Part shown: piece by piece, positions 2,770 through 22,127 of the stretch
Numbering within the stretch: position 1 is the first letter of the stretch
How the letters are laid out: every line of letters starts with the position of its first letter
DNA from: a virus
Virus record (IMG/VR): IMGVR_UViG_3300015245_000079
Location: 1-23,650 of that record
Strand: one strand, 5' to 3'
Length of the DNA stretch: 23,650 nt
Position numbers and translations under genes: made by a program
The notes under the pieces: generated by a model
The model's input: the letters and a program-made list of their open reading frames with translations, nothing else
What the model was told of the DNA's origin: nothing
The model's database searches: none

Positions 2770-3252
2770 ATGATTGAAGTCATGCCGAAGTTGTGGGTAG
2801 GCAGCGATCAGGATTACCACGGGCTGCGGCCAGCCGAAGCATGGGCTGTGGTACATGCCTCGAAAGAGCCCTACCACCGTGAAGCCTTGGGCTACAAGAC
2901 ACTAGGGGCGCCAAAGGCCCACCTTGAGTACCTCGTAGCATTACGTGGCAACCGTCTGTGTCTCAATATGGTAGACATCGACGATCCTAAATGGATCAGC
3001 CCATTCATGATCAATTCGGCCATCAGCTTCATTCAAGAGAGGTTAAAGTCAAATTGGTCTGTACTGGTCCACTGCAACCAGGGCGGCTCACGCGGCCCTG
3101 GAGTTGCCATGGCGTATATGGCGCATGTGTTGCCGCCTGAATTTGACGAGGCAGAGCGTGAATTCACTAAGCTGTACCCTGCCTATGCACCACGTGCCGG
3201 CATCCGTGGCTACCTGATGAACAACTGGGACTTGCTGAGTAAAGGATGCTGA
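2770..3252 (+). CDS. dual-specificity/tyrosine phosphatase-like protein
   Basis: A 160-residue protein with the cysteine-dependent phosphatase signature: VLVHCNQGGSRGPG, where H101, nucleophile C102 and R108 form the canonical HCX5R P-loop. The N-terminus (IEVMPKLWVGSDQDY) matches the opening strand of dual-specificity phosphatases. An Asp upstream of the P-loop (MVDIDDPKW) could supply the general acid. All catalytic features look intact, so activity on phosphoprotein, RNA 5' ends or another phosphoester is plausible; the substrate is not predictable. An AGGAA ribosome site precedes ATG 2770. The end overlaps the SNF2-type helicase by 7 bases, so the pair is probably co-translated. Confidence 0.78.
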   Translation: MIEVMPKLWVGSDQDYHGLRPAEAWAVVHASKEPYHREALGYKTLGAPKAHLEYLVALRGNRLCLNMVDIDDPKWISPFMINSAISFIQERLKSNWSVLVHCNQGGSRGPGVAMAYMAHVLPPEFDEAEREFTKLYPAYAPRAGIRGYLMNNWDLLSKGC

Positions 3253-11831: not shown

Positions 11832-12140
11832 ATGGCCCCAACCTATATCACAGATATTCAAACCATAATTGATGCCACAGCAGCGCACCTTGGCATCTCA
11901 GCCGAGGTTATCAAAAGCCCAATTGATCGAACTACCCCTGTTTCGTATGCCCGTCATGTGGCACAGTACCTAGCATGCACCATGAGCTACAAATCCAAAC
12001 GCTACATTGCTGAGCAATTTAATTGCAAAGATCACTCGTCAGTGCTGAGGGCTGTCAATAAAATAGGGCTGCTGGCATTGTCAGACCGCAAGACCAGGAA
12101 CGACGTAGCTACTATCAAGCAAACCCTGATGAAGCCTTGA
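11832..12140 (+). CDS. stand-alone DnaA domain IV-like DNA-binding protein
   Basis: A 102-residue protein consisting almost only of the C-terminal DnaA helix-turn-helix domain. The signature is YARHVAQYLACTMSYKSKRY, then IAEQFN, then the hallmark CKDHSSVLRAVNKI at about 65-78, which corresponds to the RDHTTV-type recognition loop of DnaA. The AAA+ ATPase and N-terminal domains are absent. It might recognise an origin, recruit or exclude host DnaA, or act as a transcription repressor. It sits between clamp and polymerase genes, two bases after the clamp stop, and its TGA overlaps the TTG start of the polymerase. Confidence 0.8.
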   Translation: MAPTYITDIQTIIDATAAHLGISAEVIKSPIDRTTPVSYARHVAQYLACTMSYKSKRYIAEQFNCKDHSSVLRAVNKIGLLALSDRKTRNDVATIKQTLMKP

Positions 12141-15100
12141 GCTTTTTTTTCCATAAGCCTAAAGCCCCACAAAAGCCCGCTGATAAGTTTTCACAGCGTG
12201 GCCCTACCCCCCTTAGGGGTAACAAGCAGCAGGCGCTTACGCTGACCCGTTTAGGGTGTGCCGCGTGCCCCCTGAATAAAGCTGATGTCATGTCGCCGAA
12301 AATGGCGCCTACGCTGGCTGCACATACTGAAATTTATTTCCTGGCTGAAGCACCAGGGAGGGATGAAGATGAGAACACTGGCAGACCTCTTACTGGCCCT
12401 TCAGGCAGCCTTCTACGTGAGTGTATTCCTGGTGGTGACGACAGCTACTGCTCTTTTGATAATACTGTTAGAGATCGCCCTCCAAAGAATCGCACGCCGA
12501 CGTGGCAAGAATTGGAATGTTGCCGGGGGCACGTCACCAAAAGCATCGAAAAAGCCAAGCCAAAGCTGATCGTTGGCCTAGGGGCCGTACCGCTGCAATG
12601 GATGCTAAATTCAACTGACCTGCAAGGCATGCGGGGGCGCATCTTTGCGGTTAAGGTAGGTCAGCACACCTGTCATTTCCTCCCTACTTACCACCCCTCA
12701 TTCATACTGAGGGTAGCCTATGACAAAAGAAAACCCCTCATGTCCAATTTTGGACACTGCTTCAGGATGGACATCCAAAGGGCATTCAATGCCTTGGGTT
12801 ATCTGAAACAACCCCACATAGATTCTGAAGAAGAAATCAAAGCCGGCATCCAGTGCTTTGACGGCAGTGCTGAGGATCAGTACCTTACCATTCTGTTCCT
12901 GCTCAATAAAGCCAAAAAAGCTCCAATCAAATCAGTTGACCTTGAGACCAAATGGCTGCGCCCCTACAAAACCGGTGCGGCCATCATGACGGTAGCGATC
13001 AGCTTTGAGGATACTAATTTTTCATTTGCACTAGACCACCCTAAATCAGGATGGTCCAAAGCCAAACGTATTGGCATCCTCAACCTGCTCTATGAGCTAC
13101 TAAGGGACGACACAGTCAAGATCGCGCATAATTGTTTTGCTGGTGAAACTGAGATTATCACGTCTAAAGGTCTAAAGTCCTTACACTCACTTGTAGGTCA
13201 AGCAATAACCGTGTGGACAGAAAATGGCTGGATGCCTGCCAAAGTAGGAAATTTTGGTAAACAGACTTTGCAGGAACTGACGGTAGTACCTTATAATAGG
13301 AGCAGGAGCAGTATACAGCATAAGATGTATGTAACTGCCAATCATAACTGGGTGGTTGAACGACAGATTTGGAGAAAAAATCGAGGATATGATTGGGAAC
13401 GTCTGCCAAATTTTATCAAGACGTCAGAGTTAAGACTAAAGGATAAAATAATAGCAACAGTACCTAATAGCAGAACATCTGACACATACAGCAACGCCTT
13501 CATTCATGGGCTGATATTCGCTGATGGCAGTCTAATAAAAAGAAAGGCAAAAGCTGGGTACTATCCACACAATATCAGACTTTGCGGTTGGAAAAAGAAG
13601 TTTGCCGACAGATTTGAGAAGGTAACTTACCCTAAATTTGCAAACGGCGATGCAGTATGCAATTGGTACGTCAGTAATACAAATCTGAAAGATTTGCCGC
13701 CAGTAGGGGCGTCATCAAATTATATTCAGGATTTTATAGAAGGATGGCAATTATTAGATGGTACATCTGGTGCTGATGGCAGCTGGGGGCCTGGGCCAAA
13801 GACTAGAATAGTGACAACAACCAGGGTAGATGCAGCCAAATGGTTGATGCGGTACGCCCCCCTTGCTGGCTGGTTTGTAACAGGCTTTGTGCATAAACGA
13901 GGCAAAAATTTTAGTGGCCATACTATTAGTATGTGGAATGTTACTATTTCAAAAGATGAAAAAATGGCGTGGTCTGTTAGGAAGGTAAGCAATTCATCAC
14001 GCAGAGAAAATGTTTTCTGTGCTGTCGTTCCTGATGCCAAATGTTTTACATTAGGAAATGGGATATACACTGGAAATTGTCCTTTCGAATTGGAATGGTT
14101 CATTTGGCTGCTGGGCAAGAACGTGGTCAATCACGTGGCCTGGGAATGCACACAGATGCAGGCCCATTTCATTGATGAGAGGCGTGGCAAAGGCCGTGAT
14201 GACAGTGACAGGCGCGCGGTCTACCAATCACTAGATTTCCTGTGCAAGCAGCACTTTGGCACCTCATACAAGCCGCTGTTCAAGCTCAATAAAAAGGATA
14301 TGTCTAAGTCGGACCTGGGTGAAACCCTGATCTATAACGGGGTTGATACCAAATATACCCTGAGGCTTTGGCATAAGCAGGACAAGCTGCTCAAACAGAT
14401 GGGGTTGCATACAGCCTACTTAGATTCACTGCCGAGGCAGGCATCAGTAGCTCTGATGCAGTATATTGGCATTGGCGTTGACCAGAAAGAGGTGAAACGG
14501 ATTCAGGGATTGCTTGATGGTGAAATCAAAGCCATTGAAGCGCAGATCGCTGACCTGAAAGTGGTCAAGGCTTACGTCAAGCATAACCGTGAGTTCAACC
14601 CCGCAGGCCAGGATGCAATTGTACTATTCAGGGATTACCTGAAACGGCCAGAGGTCTCAATAAAAGAGGAAAACGGCACCCGCTACTCAGTTGACAAGAA
14701 CGTACTGGATAAAATTGATCACCCCCTGGCTGGCCTGATTTTGCAACTCAGAAATAAAAGCGTCCTCAAGCATACCTTCGTTGATCCGCTAGAAGCAGGT
14801 GTGGGTGAATGCCTTCACCCTGACGGCAAGATACATCAAAATCTAAACACCACATTCACAGAAACTGGAAGAACTAGTGCTGATGAGATAAATATGCAGA
14901 ACTACCCCCAGCGCAAGGACAGCTGGGTACGCAAGCAGATAGAGGCAGGCAAAGGCCACGTATTGCTGGCCTTTGACTATGGCCAGATTGAAGCATGCGG
15001 CGCGGCAGTGGTCTCAAATGACAAAGTGCTTGTTGAAGCCTTATGGCAGGATTACGATATCCATATGGATTGGGCAATTAAAATAGCTGACAGGTGCCCT

Positions 15101-15694
15101 GAAATTGTTGGTGGGTCAATGAAGGACCCCAAAGTAGCCAAAGCTTTCAGATCGAGAATTAAGAATAAACTTATCTTCCCGTCTATATATGGTGCGCAGG
15201 CTAAATCAGTAGCTGGCTATCTTGGTATAGAAGAATACATAGGTGAAGAGATAATGGATCTTTTCTGGCAGTCCTTTCACGGCCTCAAGGCGTGGCAGGA
15301 TCGGCTGATGAAAGGCTACTACGAGAACGGTTATGTTGCCAGCCTTGTGGGGCGCAGGCGTAATTACCCACTGCGACGCGAGCAGGCTATCAACCATCCT
15401 ATTCAATGCTGGGCAGCTGAGATAATCTGCGATGCAATGTGCCGACTATCACATCACGCGGTGACAACCGGTGAGTGGCACATTCACCCCGTCCTTAACA
15501 TTCATGATGACTTAACCGTGATTGTTCCTGATGATGACAAAATGCTAGAGCGAGCCATTGAAGTTATTTACCGAGCCATGTTGAGCCCGCCGTATAAGAT
15601 CAACGTGCCGCTTTCAGTTGAATGCTCAATCGGCAAAAACTGGTATGAGATGAATTCAATTGGGAAATTCTGGTCGCACCGTGATCTTAAATAA
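12137..15694 (+). CDS. polA: uracil-DNA glycosylase-DNA polymerase I fusion with intein
   Basis: A 1185-residue precursor. Residues about 1-220 form a family 4-like uracil-DNA glycosylase (AEAPGRDEDENTGRPLTGPS, YHPSFILR). Residues about 255 on form a 3'-5' exonuclease with DLET (motif I), HN|CPFE (motif II, split by an intein) and YNGVD (motif III). The C-terminal half is a family A polymerase: motif A D947YGQIEAC, motif B region RIKNKLIFPSIYG, motif C H1123DD. Removing the 315-residue intein leaves 870 residues. The start is TTG 12137, overlapping the DnaA-like stop; no in-frame ATG precedes the first Cys pair. A similar UDG-polymerase fusion is known in phage SPO1. Eight T residues directly after the start are odd. 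The glycosylase has lost one usual iron-sulfur cysteine. Confidence 0.92.
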   Translation: MSFFFHKPKAPQKPADKFSQRGPTPLRGNKQQALTLTRLGCAACPLNKADVMSPKMAPTLAAHTEIYFLAEAPGRDEDENTGRPLTGPSGSLLRECIPGGDDSYCSFDNTVRDRPPKNRTPTWQELECCRGHVTKSIEKAKPKLIVGLGAVPLQWMLNSTDLQGMRGRIFAVKVGQHTCHFLPTYHPSFILRVAYDKRKPLMSNFGHCFRMDIQRAFNALGYLKQPHIDSEEEIKAGIQCFDGSAEDQYLTILFLLNKAKKAPIKSVDLETKWLRPYKTGAAIMTVAISFEDTNFSFALDHPKSGWSKAKRIGILNLLYELLRDDTVKIAHNCFAGETEIITSKGLKSLHSLVGQAITVWTENGWMPAKVGNFGKQTLQELTVVPYNRSRSSIQHKMYVTANHNWVVERQIWRKNRGYDWERLPNFIKTSELRLKDKIIATVPNSRTSDTYSNAFIHGLIFADGSLIKRKAKAGYYPHNIRLCGWKKKFADRFEKVTYPKFANGDAVCNWYVSNTNLKDLPPVGASSNYIQDFIEGWQLLDGTSGADGSWGPGPKTRIVTTTRVDAAKWLMRYAPLAGWFVTGFVHKRGKNFSGHTISMWNVTISKDEKMAWSVRKVSNSSRRENVFCAVVPDAKCFTLGNGIYTGNCPFELEWFIWLLGKNVVNHVAWECTQMQAHFIDERRGKGRDDSDRRAVYQSLDFLCKQHFGTSYKPLFKLNKKDMSKSDLGETLIYNGVDTKYTLRLWHKQDKLLKQMGLHTAYLDSLPRQASVALMQYIGIGVDQKEVKRIQGLLDGEIKAIEAQIADLKVVKAYVKHNREFNPAGQDAIVLFRDYLKRPEVSIKEENGTRYSVDKNVLDKIDHPLAGLILQLRNKSVLKHTFVDPLEAGVGECLHPDGKIHQNLNTTFTETGRTSADEINMQNYPQRKDSWVRKQIEAGKGHVLLAFDYGQIEACGAAVVSNDKVLVEALWQDYDIHMDWAIKIADRCPEIVGGSMKDPKVAKAFRSRIKNKLIFPSIYGAQAKSVAGYLGIEEYIGEEIMDLFWQSFHGLKAWQDRLMKGYYENGYVASLVGRRRNYPLRREQAINHPIQCWAAEIICDAMCRLSHHAVTTGEWHIHPVLNIHDDLTVIVPDDDKMLERAIEVIYRAMLSPPYKINVPLSVECSIGKNWYEMNSIGKFWSHRDLK
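13133..14077 (+). mobile_element. LAGLIDADG intein in exonuclease motif II
   Basis: An in-frame 315-residue insertion. It begins with the catalytic Cys in CFAGETEIITSKGLKSL (block A), contains block B TANHNW with the T-x2-H motif, and ends VPDAKCFTLGNGIYTGN followed by Cys+1. The penultimate residue is Gly where His is usual, a variant seen in other phage inteins. The middle has two LAGLIDADG-like motifs, HGLIFADGS and FIEGWQLLDGTS, so it is or was a homing endonuclease. The nucleotide composition is visibly more A/T-rich than the flanking exteins, consistent with separate origin. Precise excision rebuilds IAHN-CPFELEW, a standard exonuclease motif II. Confidence 0.9.
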
Positions 15695-20272: not shown

Positions 20273-20759
20273 GCAAAAGGGCGCGAGTTTTGAGCGAGAG
20301 ATTTGCCGGCATCTATCTTTGTGGGTAAGCCAAGGTAAAAATGAGGATGTCTACTGGCGTTCAGCTATGTCCGGTGGGCGTTCAACCGTAGCCTTTGCCA
20401 AGGGGAAAAGGCTCGCTGCCCAAGCTGGCGACATCACATGCATTCACCCTATTGGCCATGCGCTAGCCGGGCAGTTCTTCATGGAATGCAAAGCGTACCG
20501 TGATCTCAATTACCCAGGGCTTTTGAAGGGCACAGGTCACTTGGTTGTCTTTTGGCGCGAAGCTGTAGAGCAAGCCAAGCGTTATAAAAAACTTCCTTTA
20601 CTGATCGCAAAGCAAAATCAGCAGCCAGCCACAGCCTGCCTGACGGCTGAGGGGGTCAGATTATTGAAACTGCGTGGTCGTTCTGTGTTGATTGCTCCTG
20701 GTCTCAACCTGCGTATAGTGCTTTTTGACACATTCCTCAAATGGGCGCACCGGCTGTGA
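20253..20759 (+). CDS. PDDEXK-family endonuclease, resolvase-like
   Basis: A 168-residue protein with a PDDEXK nuclease core. The first helix has KGASFE14REICRHL, then a strand AQAGD60ITCIHP, then FFME78CK80AY, giving the E...D-x17-E-x-K active-site pattern found in archaeal Holliday junction resolvases and related phage nucleases. R-rich and Gly-rich N-terminus (MRKGGGKQKG) may bind DNA. A conserved Gln-x3-Y in the following helix (EAVEQAKRY) is also typical. Next to a recombinase and SbcCD genes, a junction-resolving or recombination endonuclease is the best reading, though a repair nuclease is also possible. Confidence 0.75.
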   Translation: MRKGGGKQKGASFEREICRHLSLWVSQGKNEDVYWRSAMSGGRSTVAFAKGKRLAAQAGDITCIHPIGHALAGQFFMECKAYRDLNYPGLLKGTGHLVVFWREAVEQAKRYKKLPLLIAKQNQQPATACLTAEGVRLLKLRGRSVLIAPGLNLRIVLFDTFLKWAHRL

Positions 20760-21181
20760 CCAAGCTGATCATTGATCCAAGTGAAATGGGTGATTACCTG
20801 AGTGAGGTCCTAGGTGACGCACCATGGACTCATTTTGAGCAGTTCATTATAGGCATAGCTGTCTTTGGAGGCATAGAATTCAAAATGAGGATTGGCCTGC
20901 ATATGAAGCGGCCAACACAAGCGGTCATGGCATTAGGACAATTCGTGAAGCTAAGACGGGCAAATGAATACGGGCGTTTCAAGCTCAAGAACTTGACGCC
21001 TGAGGCACCTGACACGTGTGTCTATTTTCACGGCTGGGGGCAAGACATGGTGCCGTGTTGGTGTCCTGCCCCTGAGGTCTTTGAAAAACTGATGGGTGCC
21101 ACCAAACCTGAAGTCCCACCCGGCATCAGTCGTGTCATGATGGACGAGCTGATACTGAAGCCTTGGCTTCCCAGGAGGTAA
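20741..21181 (+). CDS. tandem paralogue family X, copy 1
   Basis: A protein of up to 146 residues. The central block FKMRIGLHMKRPTQAVMALGQFVKLR recurs in the next two genes (written here in two pieces: FKMRIGLHMKRP and TQAVMALGQFVKLR). An N-terminal segment with WTHFEQF matches WEHFES and WKDFEK in the sister copies. The C-terminus is distinct (a cysteine pair in PCWCPAPE). ATG 20741 overlaps the nuclease by 19 bases; GTG 20756 (GTGA overlap) is an equally good start. Function unknown; mixed alpha/beta, no membrane segment. Confidence 0.65.
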   Translation: MGAPAVTKLIIDPSEMGDYLSEVLGDAPWTHFEQFIIGIAVFGGIEFKMRIGLHMKRPTQAVMALGQFVKLRRANEYGRFKLKNLTPEAPDTCVYFHGWGQDMVPCWCPAPEVFEKLMGATKPEVPPGISRVMMDELILKPWLPRR

Positions 21182-21183
21182 CC

Positions 21184-21672
21184 ATGACCGTTGAAGAACT
21201 TGAAGAAATGATCAATGACCTTAGATGGGAGCATTTTGAGTCTGAGATGTGGGGCCAGATTCAAATCAGCAAGATCATATTTGCCATGCGGGTAGGGCTG
21301 CATATGGACCGCCCGACGCAGGCAGTCATGGCTGAAGGTCAATTTGTCAGGATGCGATCGGCTGACTACTGGAAGGATTTCATGCTAACGAAATTGGACC
21401 CAGACCGACTATACGAGAGCCTATATTTTCTTCGGGGTGGTCAATCAGTAAATTCAGCAATGGATACTCTCTGGCGTCCCAAGGAACTGATGCCAACACA
21501 AGCGGGTATGGGTGGATTAAATCCTGGCATTTATGGAGGCGCCGCCCAAATGACAGCTGCTCAGCTGTTGCAAATTCAACAGACGCTGCAACTCCAGTCT
21601 AAGACGGTATCTGCTATGGGGCCAAAGCGGCCAGTTCAATCCAGTTCGTGGACAGGGAAAAATACGCCATGA
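21184..21672 (+). CDS. tandem paralogue family X, copy 2
   Basis: A 162-residue protein starting at ATG 21184, fixed by AGGAGGT at 21173-21179, which also encodes the final Arg-Arg of copy 1. The opening MTVEELEEMINDLRWEHFES is almost the same as copy 3, and FAMRVGLHMDRPTQAVMAEG then QFVRMR is the shared core. The C-terminal third is Gln-, Gly- and Met-rich (QLLQIQQTLQLQSK), low in complexity and unlike the others. Function unknown. Confidence 0.72.
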   Translation: MTVEELEEMINDLRWEHFESEMWGQIQISKIIFAMRVGLHMDRPTQAVMAEGQFVRMRSADYWKDFMLTKLDPDRLYESLYFLRGGQSVNSAMDTLWRPKELMPTQAGMGGLNPGIYGGAAQMTAAQLLQIQQTLQLQSKTVSAMGPKRPVQSSSWTGKNTP

Positions 21673-22127
21673 CCGTTGAAGAGCTTGAACAAATGATTGG
21701 CCACCTCAACTGGAAGGACTTTGAGAAAACCGACGCGGCTGAGATAACTCTGCTGCCACCAGCACCTGCCAATGTGCAACGTGAGCCACCGGTCCGGTTT
21801 GTGATGCGTGTTGGCCTGCACATGAATAGACCAGCCCAGGTCATCATTGCCATGGGCCACTTCGTGAGGCTGCGGGCAGCCCCTGAATACGAAGGCTACG
21901 AGCTTGCACGCCTGGACCCCGGTGACCCGGACAACAGCCTATATGATGGGCTCGTAGCCATTGCAGGTACAAACAATATCGAAAAAAAAGCTAAGTGGAG
22001 ACCACCCTTAAAACTCTTTGGTAACATGAGTGAGATTGTGAATGCAACTATCCGTAATATGACCGGTCAATTGGCAGCCAATATGAAAAGAAATAATAAC
22101 CTGCTTATGCGGCTGATAAAGAAATAG
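21669..22127 (+). CDS. tandem paralogue family X, copy 3
   Basis: A 152-residue protein starting at ATG 21669 by ATGA overlap with copy 2; GTG 21648 would add seven residues. It opens MTVEELEQMIGHLNWKDFEK and carries the core FVMRVGLHMNRPAQVIIAMG then HFVRLR, followed by ELARLDPGDPDNSLY, which aligns with LTKLDPDRLYESLY in copy 2. A proline-rich insertion (LLPPAPANVQREPP) precedes the core. The C-terminal helix is basic (MKRNNNLLMRLIKK). Function unknown. Confidence 0.72.
   Translation: MTVEELEQMIGHLNWKDFEKTDAAEITLLPPAPANVQREPPVRFVMRVGLHMNRPAQVIIAMGHFVRLRAAPEYEGYELARLDPGDPDNSLYDGLVAIAGTNNIEKKAKWRPPLKLFGNMSEIVNATIRNMTGQLAANMKRNNNLLMRLIKK

Follow-up and report, generated by a model that had tools for sequence, protein, structure and literature searches.

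An intein splitting exonuclease motif II of a viral family A DNA polymerase

Introduction

In the IMG/VR virus record IMGVR_UViG_3300015245_000079, which comes from a bacterial virus, the reading frame of a replicative DNA polymerase contains a 315-residue block in the middle of a metal-binding motif of its proofreading exonuclease. This raises the questions of what the block is, how it came to occupy such a position, and whether its presence there has a role in replication fidelity. To answer them we analyzed the whole 23,650-base stretch of the record (positions 1-23,650), hereafter the window, together with related polymerases and inteins from other phages.

Results

The polymerase gene and its neighborhood

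The gene (12137..15694, plus strand, as are all its features given below) encodes a family A DNA polymerase precursor of 1185 aa, with matches to PF03167 (2.2e-17), PF01612 (3.2e-05) and PF00476 (3e-59). Its reading frame starts with a TTG at 12137, which overlaps the stop of the upstream gene. The precursor consists of a family-4-like uracil-DNA glycosylase (UDG) domain, a DEDD 3'-5' exonuclease split by the insert, and a PolA polymerase domain (14534..15649, PF00476). The UDG superfamily domain, found by domain searches at residues 60-202 (12314..12742), is fused to the N-terminal side of the polymerase; the same arrangement is present in the nearest polymerase found (L002), and the region is covered by N-terminal matches to the polymerase of Edwardsiella phage ZHS. 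The gene just upstream, at 11832-12140, encodes a DnaA C-terminal DNA-binding domain on its own (PF08299, 2.7e-15) and overlaps the TTG start. Elsewhere in the window, three genes in tandem (20741-21181, 21163-21672 and 21648-22127) overlap one another; their products of 146-169 aa are paralogues, 44% and 49% identical where they align, and have no Pfam match. A small protein (2770-3252) weakly matches a dual-specificity phosphatase profile (PF00782, 2.1e-07, under the cut-off).

The insert separates the two halves of exonuclease motif II

Alignment with other phage PolAs identified exonuclease motif I as VDLET (Asp-Leu-Glu with D268 and E270, 12938..12946), motif II as HN|CPFE and motif III as YNGVD (14333..14347). 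The insert divides motif II, so that HN forms the end of the N-extein (13127..13132) and CPFE, beginning with the +1 Cys, follows the insert (14078..14089). When the flanks were searched separately, PF01612 gave sub-threshold scores of 12.6 bits (N-terminal) and 13.5 bits (C-terminal), whereas the joined flanks matched in one stretch with 41.7 bits, close to the 42.0 bits of the uninterrupted L002 polymerase. At the sequence level, leaving the insert out thus restores the exonuclease domain. The original prediction had an intein interrupting exonuclease motif II of the replicative polymerase after IAHN and before CPFE, and the rebuilt PF01612 match bears this out. All three motifs expected of a family A DEDD exonuclease (DxE in Exo I, N-x-x-[FY]-[DE] in Exo II and Y-x3-D in Exo III) are present in the predicted product, the second of them after splicing only. 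In place of the usual Asp, motif II has Glu as its acidic residue in the window polymerase, L002, L016, L032, L096, Vibrio phage R01 and Edwardsiella phage ZHS; as several enzymes share this replacement, proofreading in this branch is to be regarded as putative.

The insert has the sequence features and predicted fold of an intein

The insert comprises residues 333-647 (13133..14077). It runs from Cys333 (nt 13133) to a terminal YTGN (nt 14077), and the next residue is Cys; joining the exteins in silico gives a product of 870 aa that reads KIAHN-CPFELEW across the junction. Sequence, family searches and a structural model all point to a 315-aa intein with a Hint splicing domain and a LAGLIDADG homing endonuclease. 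The family alignment places the predicted splicing nucleophile Cys1 (A1) at 13133..13135 and block B, TANHNW with His71 (B10) and Trp73 (B12), at 13334..13351. The two LAGLIDADG motifs are AFIHGLIFADG (Asp131, 13496..13528) and YIQDFIEGWQLLDG (Asp209, 13721..13762). Block F is VFCAVVPDAKCFTL (14012..14053), with Cys296 at F4 and without the F-block His, and block G is GIYTGN (14060..14077), with Thr313 at G5, the penultimate Gly314 at G6 and Asn315 at G7. The sequence features of an intein are therefore all recognizable, namely an in-frame insertion missing from homologues, blocks A, B, F and G, Cys1, Asn315 and a +1 Cys.

The window intein alone reached no curated family cut-off in profile searches. 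Among 15 family members, 13 matched Pfam Intein_splicing, 10 matched NCBIfam intein_Nterm and seven matched LAGLIDADG_3. Searches against the PDB gave nothing credible with phmmer and the intein alone, and weak matches with the family profile (a DnaE intein at 1.2e-05, PI-PfuI at 0.00029). An AlphaFold2 model of the intein, built from the 15-sequence alignment, had a pLDDT of 88.7 and a pTM of 0.87. It matched PI-PfuI (1dq3) with Z 19.7 and rmsd 3.9 A over 282 residues, and PI-SceI with Z 19.0, both matches spanning 1-315; its splicing part matched the mini-intein NpuDnaB (4o1r) with Z 18.0 and rmsd 1.9 over 127 residues. The model thus predicts a Hint fold and, with the two acidic residues and the PI-SceI match, a LAGLIDADG endonuclease over the whole insert, although PI-PfuI and PI-SceI are larger (454 aa), share 15-17% identity with it and reside in other hosts.

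The insert is also compositionally foreign: its codons have a third-position GC of 0.36, those of the exteins 0.54, and 10,000 random codon sets drawn from the neighboring genes included no value as low. Rfam detected no intron in the window at gathering level. The original prediction had given the coordinates and lengths of the insert exactly, and family, fold and empty-site evidence agree with it.

Related inteins in other phage genes

A tblastn search of annotated phages returned six records that align with the intein over its full length (1-315). All six start with Cys1 and end in TGN|C or TGQ|C, and four of them sit in phage ribonucleotide reductases (RNRs). The inteins of the class III RNRs of Morganella phage MP1 and Klebsiella phage FBKp34 share with the window intein Cys1, the TGN|C end, the Trp-Cys-Thr triplet described below and the LAGLIDADG endonuclease, and so does that of the Thermobifida phage P318 RNR, except that it ends in TGQ|C. 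All three differ from it in host gene and insertion site, are about 25-28% identical to it and fall outside the clade of motif II inteins. An intein in a phage replicative polymerase is also known from Pseudomonas phage MIJ3 (PMC6892783), but there the host enzyme is of family B, the intein is split and the endonuclease is of the HNH type.

Filled and empty sites among phage polymerases

The nearest polymerase (L002, 63% identity) reads VAHN|APFE and has an empty site. Scans of IMG/VR with patterns and profiles revealed inteins at the identical point in four further, divergent polymerases, those of L016/L033 (MAHN|C...TRN|CKFE), L032 (IMHN|C...TSN|SKFE), L092/L097 (VLHN|C...TGN|SPFD) and L096 (TNHN|C...TGN|SVFE); the host proteins of L092 and L096 match the PolA profile at 9e-27 and 3e-82. 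In a further phage contig (L013, 2963-2988), a 1711-aa reading frame apparently contains two back-to-back inteins around AGIFAHN|C.

A tree of 24 inteins (those of L003-L007, L016-L033, L092, L096, L099, L100 and L106, with the window intein at 13133-14077) placed the five motif II inteins together as a clade, with support of 99/98 and present in 100% of 200 bootstrap trees. On the tree of the host polymerases, which has few rows and long branches for L092 and L096, the presence of the intein requires four changes, at least three of them forced by supported branches. A single intein clade in hosts that do not group together suggests that the element homes. All five intein-bearing polymerases have Cys or Ser at +1, and eight empty ones have A, L, A, G, F, I, I and G there, as expected if selection maintains splicing. 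The simplest reading is one homing lineage that spread horizontally into one site, with splicing under selection; an old insertion followed by many losses is less likely. The DNA flanking the site is identical at 48 of 90 positions between the window and L002, so this pair does not capture a recent homing event.

No relative of these inteins was found in annotated polA genes by tblastn of 50,697 phage records, a result that says nothing about unrelated inteins, and two narrow protein patterns found no relative in 84,980 bacterial and archaeal genomes. A DNA pattern for the C-terminal junction matched mostly unrelated genes.

Probable introns in the same motif of Herelleviridae polymerases

Exonuclease motif II is also interrupted in polA genes of Herelleviridae, at VGHNI|QYD in Listeria phage AG20, Enterococcus phage EFDG1 and Bacillus phage KKP_4048, and at VAHNGK|YD in Staphylococcus phage 812, whose gene is annotated as a three-piece join. 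These breaks lie two to four residues past the intein site and, unlike the intein, the interruptions would be removed as RNA. They are probably group I introns: an Rfam group I match was obtained for KKP_4048 alone (E 1.6e-06, under the gathering score), the other cases being recognized from the split reading frame and, for phage 812, also from the annotation. Of 60 matches taken at even spacing, 13 have alignments that end at residue 270 or 272, at motif II. Herelleviridae polA genes interrupted in this way include L041 (4853-5666), L042, L043 and L044 (4928-5255), and their pieces are annotated as separate polymerases or exonucleases. The family phrog_4008, which ends exactly at residue 332, was at first taken for intein-broken polymerases; those of its fragments that could be checked correspond to exon 1 of Herelleviridae polA genes split by introns.

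Splicing residues and the class 1/class 3 question

In the alignment of 24 inteins, the catalytic set of the window intein is complete (Cys1, His71, Asn315, the +1 Cys, Asp131 and Asp209), and splicing most likely begins at Cys1 by the class 1 route. None of the 24 has a penultimate His; that position holds Gly, Ser, Arg or Phe, and within the motif II clade it varies between Gly, Ser and Arg. The F-block His is absent from all five motif II inteins in the alignment. The suggestion that the penultimate Gly may slow splicing was not upheld. Besides the 24 relatives without His, the intein of the mycobacteriophage Bethlehem RDF, which has a penultimate Gly, splices fully, and its G316H variant is slower (Kelley et al. 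2016, PMC5050341), so slow splicing should not be assumed here.

All 24 inteins combine Cys1 with Trp at B12, Cys at F4 and Thr at G5, three positions that were not part of the patterns used to retrieve them. This Trp-Cys-Thr triplet, shared with the class 3 inteins MP-Be DnaB, MsmDnaB1 and MchDnaB1, has been described as confined to class 3 (PMC7664689, PMC5050341), whose members have no N-terminal nucleophile (PMC7664689, PMC5050341, PMC3196547). Since all 24 have Cys1, the inteins cannot be filed as class 3; they have the N-terminal nucleophile of class 1, which they are presumed to use. Class 3 inteins ending in THN also have a penultimate His (PMC12245125), whereas the members of this family do not. 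Some class 1 inteins also have Cys at F4 and form a polyphyletic set (PMC3196547), and others have Trp B12 or Thr G5 on its own (PMC7891396, PMC12245125), so the combination may have been inherited by chance in one clade. Class 3 has been proposed to derive from a phage intein after loss of residue 1 (PMC3196547). The present clade, with Cys1, the full triplet and no penultimate His, might be an intermediate between class 1 and class 3, able to splice through either nucleophile and surviving as a representative of such a progenitor, but this interpretation is rather unlikely.

Discussion

Taken together, the data make it very probable that the insert is a full-length LAGLIDADG intein behaving as a selfish homing element. 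After translation it would excise itself and join residues 332 and 648, giving an 870-residue UDG-exonuclease-polymerase. Its endonuclease would cut the conserved motif II DNA in intein-free polA genes of co-infecting phages, and repair of the cut gene would copy the intein in. Motif II would be a favored site because it has little freedom to vary and imprecise loss would ruin the exonuclease. Inteins and group I introns are known to be biased towards conserved sites (Swithers et al. 2009, PMC2814812), and this bias, together with the repeated invasion of motif II by both kinds of element, accounts for the position of the intein.

The same position had led the original prediction to the proposal of a mutation-rate switch, in which the unspliced precursor polymerizes without proofreading and the conditions for splicing set the fidelity of the phage. 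The insert does separate the conserved Asn from the acidic residue of motif II, so the unspliced exonuclease is likely inactive, and conditional splicing is known for other inteins. An AlphaFold2 model of a precursor fragment, from a six-row alignment, was too poor to judge the disruption of the exonuclease (pLDDT about 35 after the intein). Site targeting, however, accounts for the recurrence of inteins at this site and of introns in this motif, the penultimate residue is not constant within the clade, and the Bethlehem intein splices fully with Gly at that position (PMC5050341). Beyond the position of the insert nothing supports such a switch, and there is no sign of a long-lived or polymerase-active precursor; we therefore consider it very improbable, and it is not needed to explain where the insert lies.

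Degeneration of the element, with a dead endonuclease or splicing domain and a polymerase that is non-functional or bypassed, would fit the missing penultimate and F-block His residues and the failure of the window intein to reach curated cut-offs. It is improbable nonetheless, as the frame is open, Cys1, the B10 His, Asn315, the +1 Cys and both LAGLIDADG Asp residues are present, the +1 nucleophile is retained in five of five cases and the polymerase motifs are intact. The view that the block is a normal structural part of polymerases of this family, and no intein, can be practically dismissed. No relatives that keep it as an essential part of the enzyme were seen, and its absence from L002 and several other phage PolAs already refutes the idea; related blocks occur in unrelated genes such as those of RNRs, and the modeled fold is that of an intein.

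The presumed homing intein described here is an element of a familiar kind, with what may be a new insertion site and possibly a variant signature. In the literature searched we found no description of the metal-binding motif of a proofreading exonuclease as an intein insertion site. One presumably homing lineage occupies this site in very different phages, and introns break the same motif elsewhere. The origin of class 3 inteins is disputed between divergence from a phage class 1 intein and a separate origin (PMC3196547 versus PMC7664689), and 24 natural inteins that combine Cys1 with the class 3 triplet make the question testable by mutating Cys1 and Cys296.
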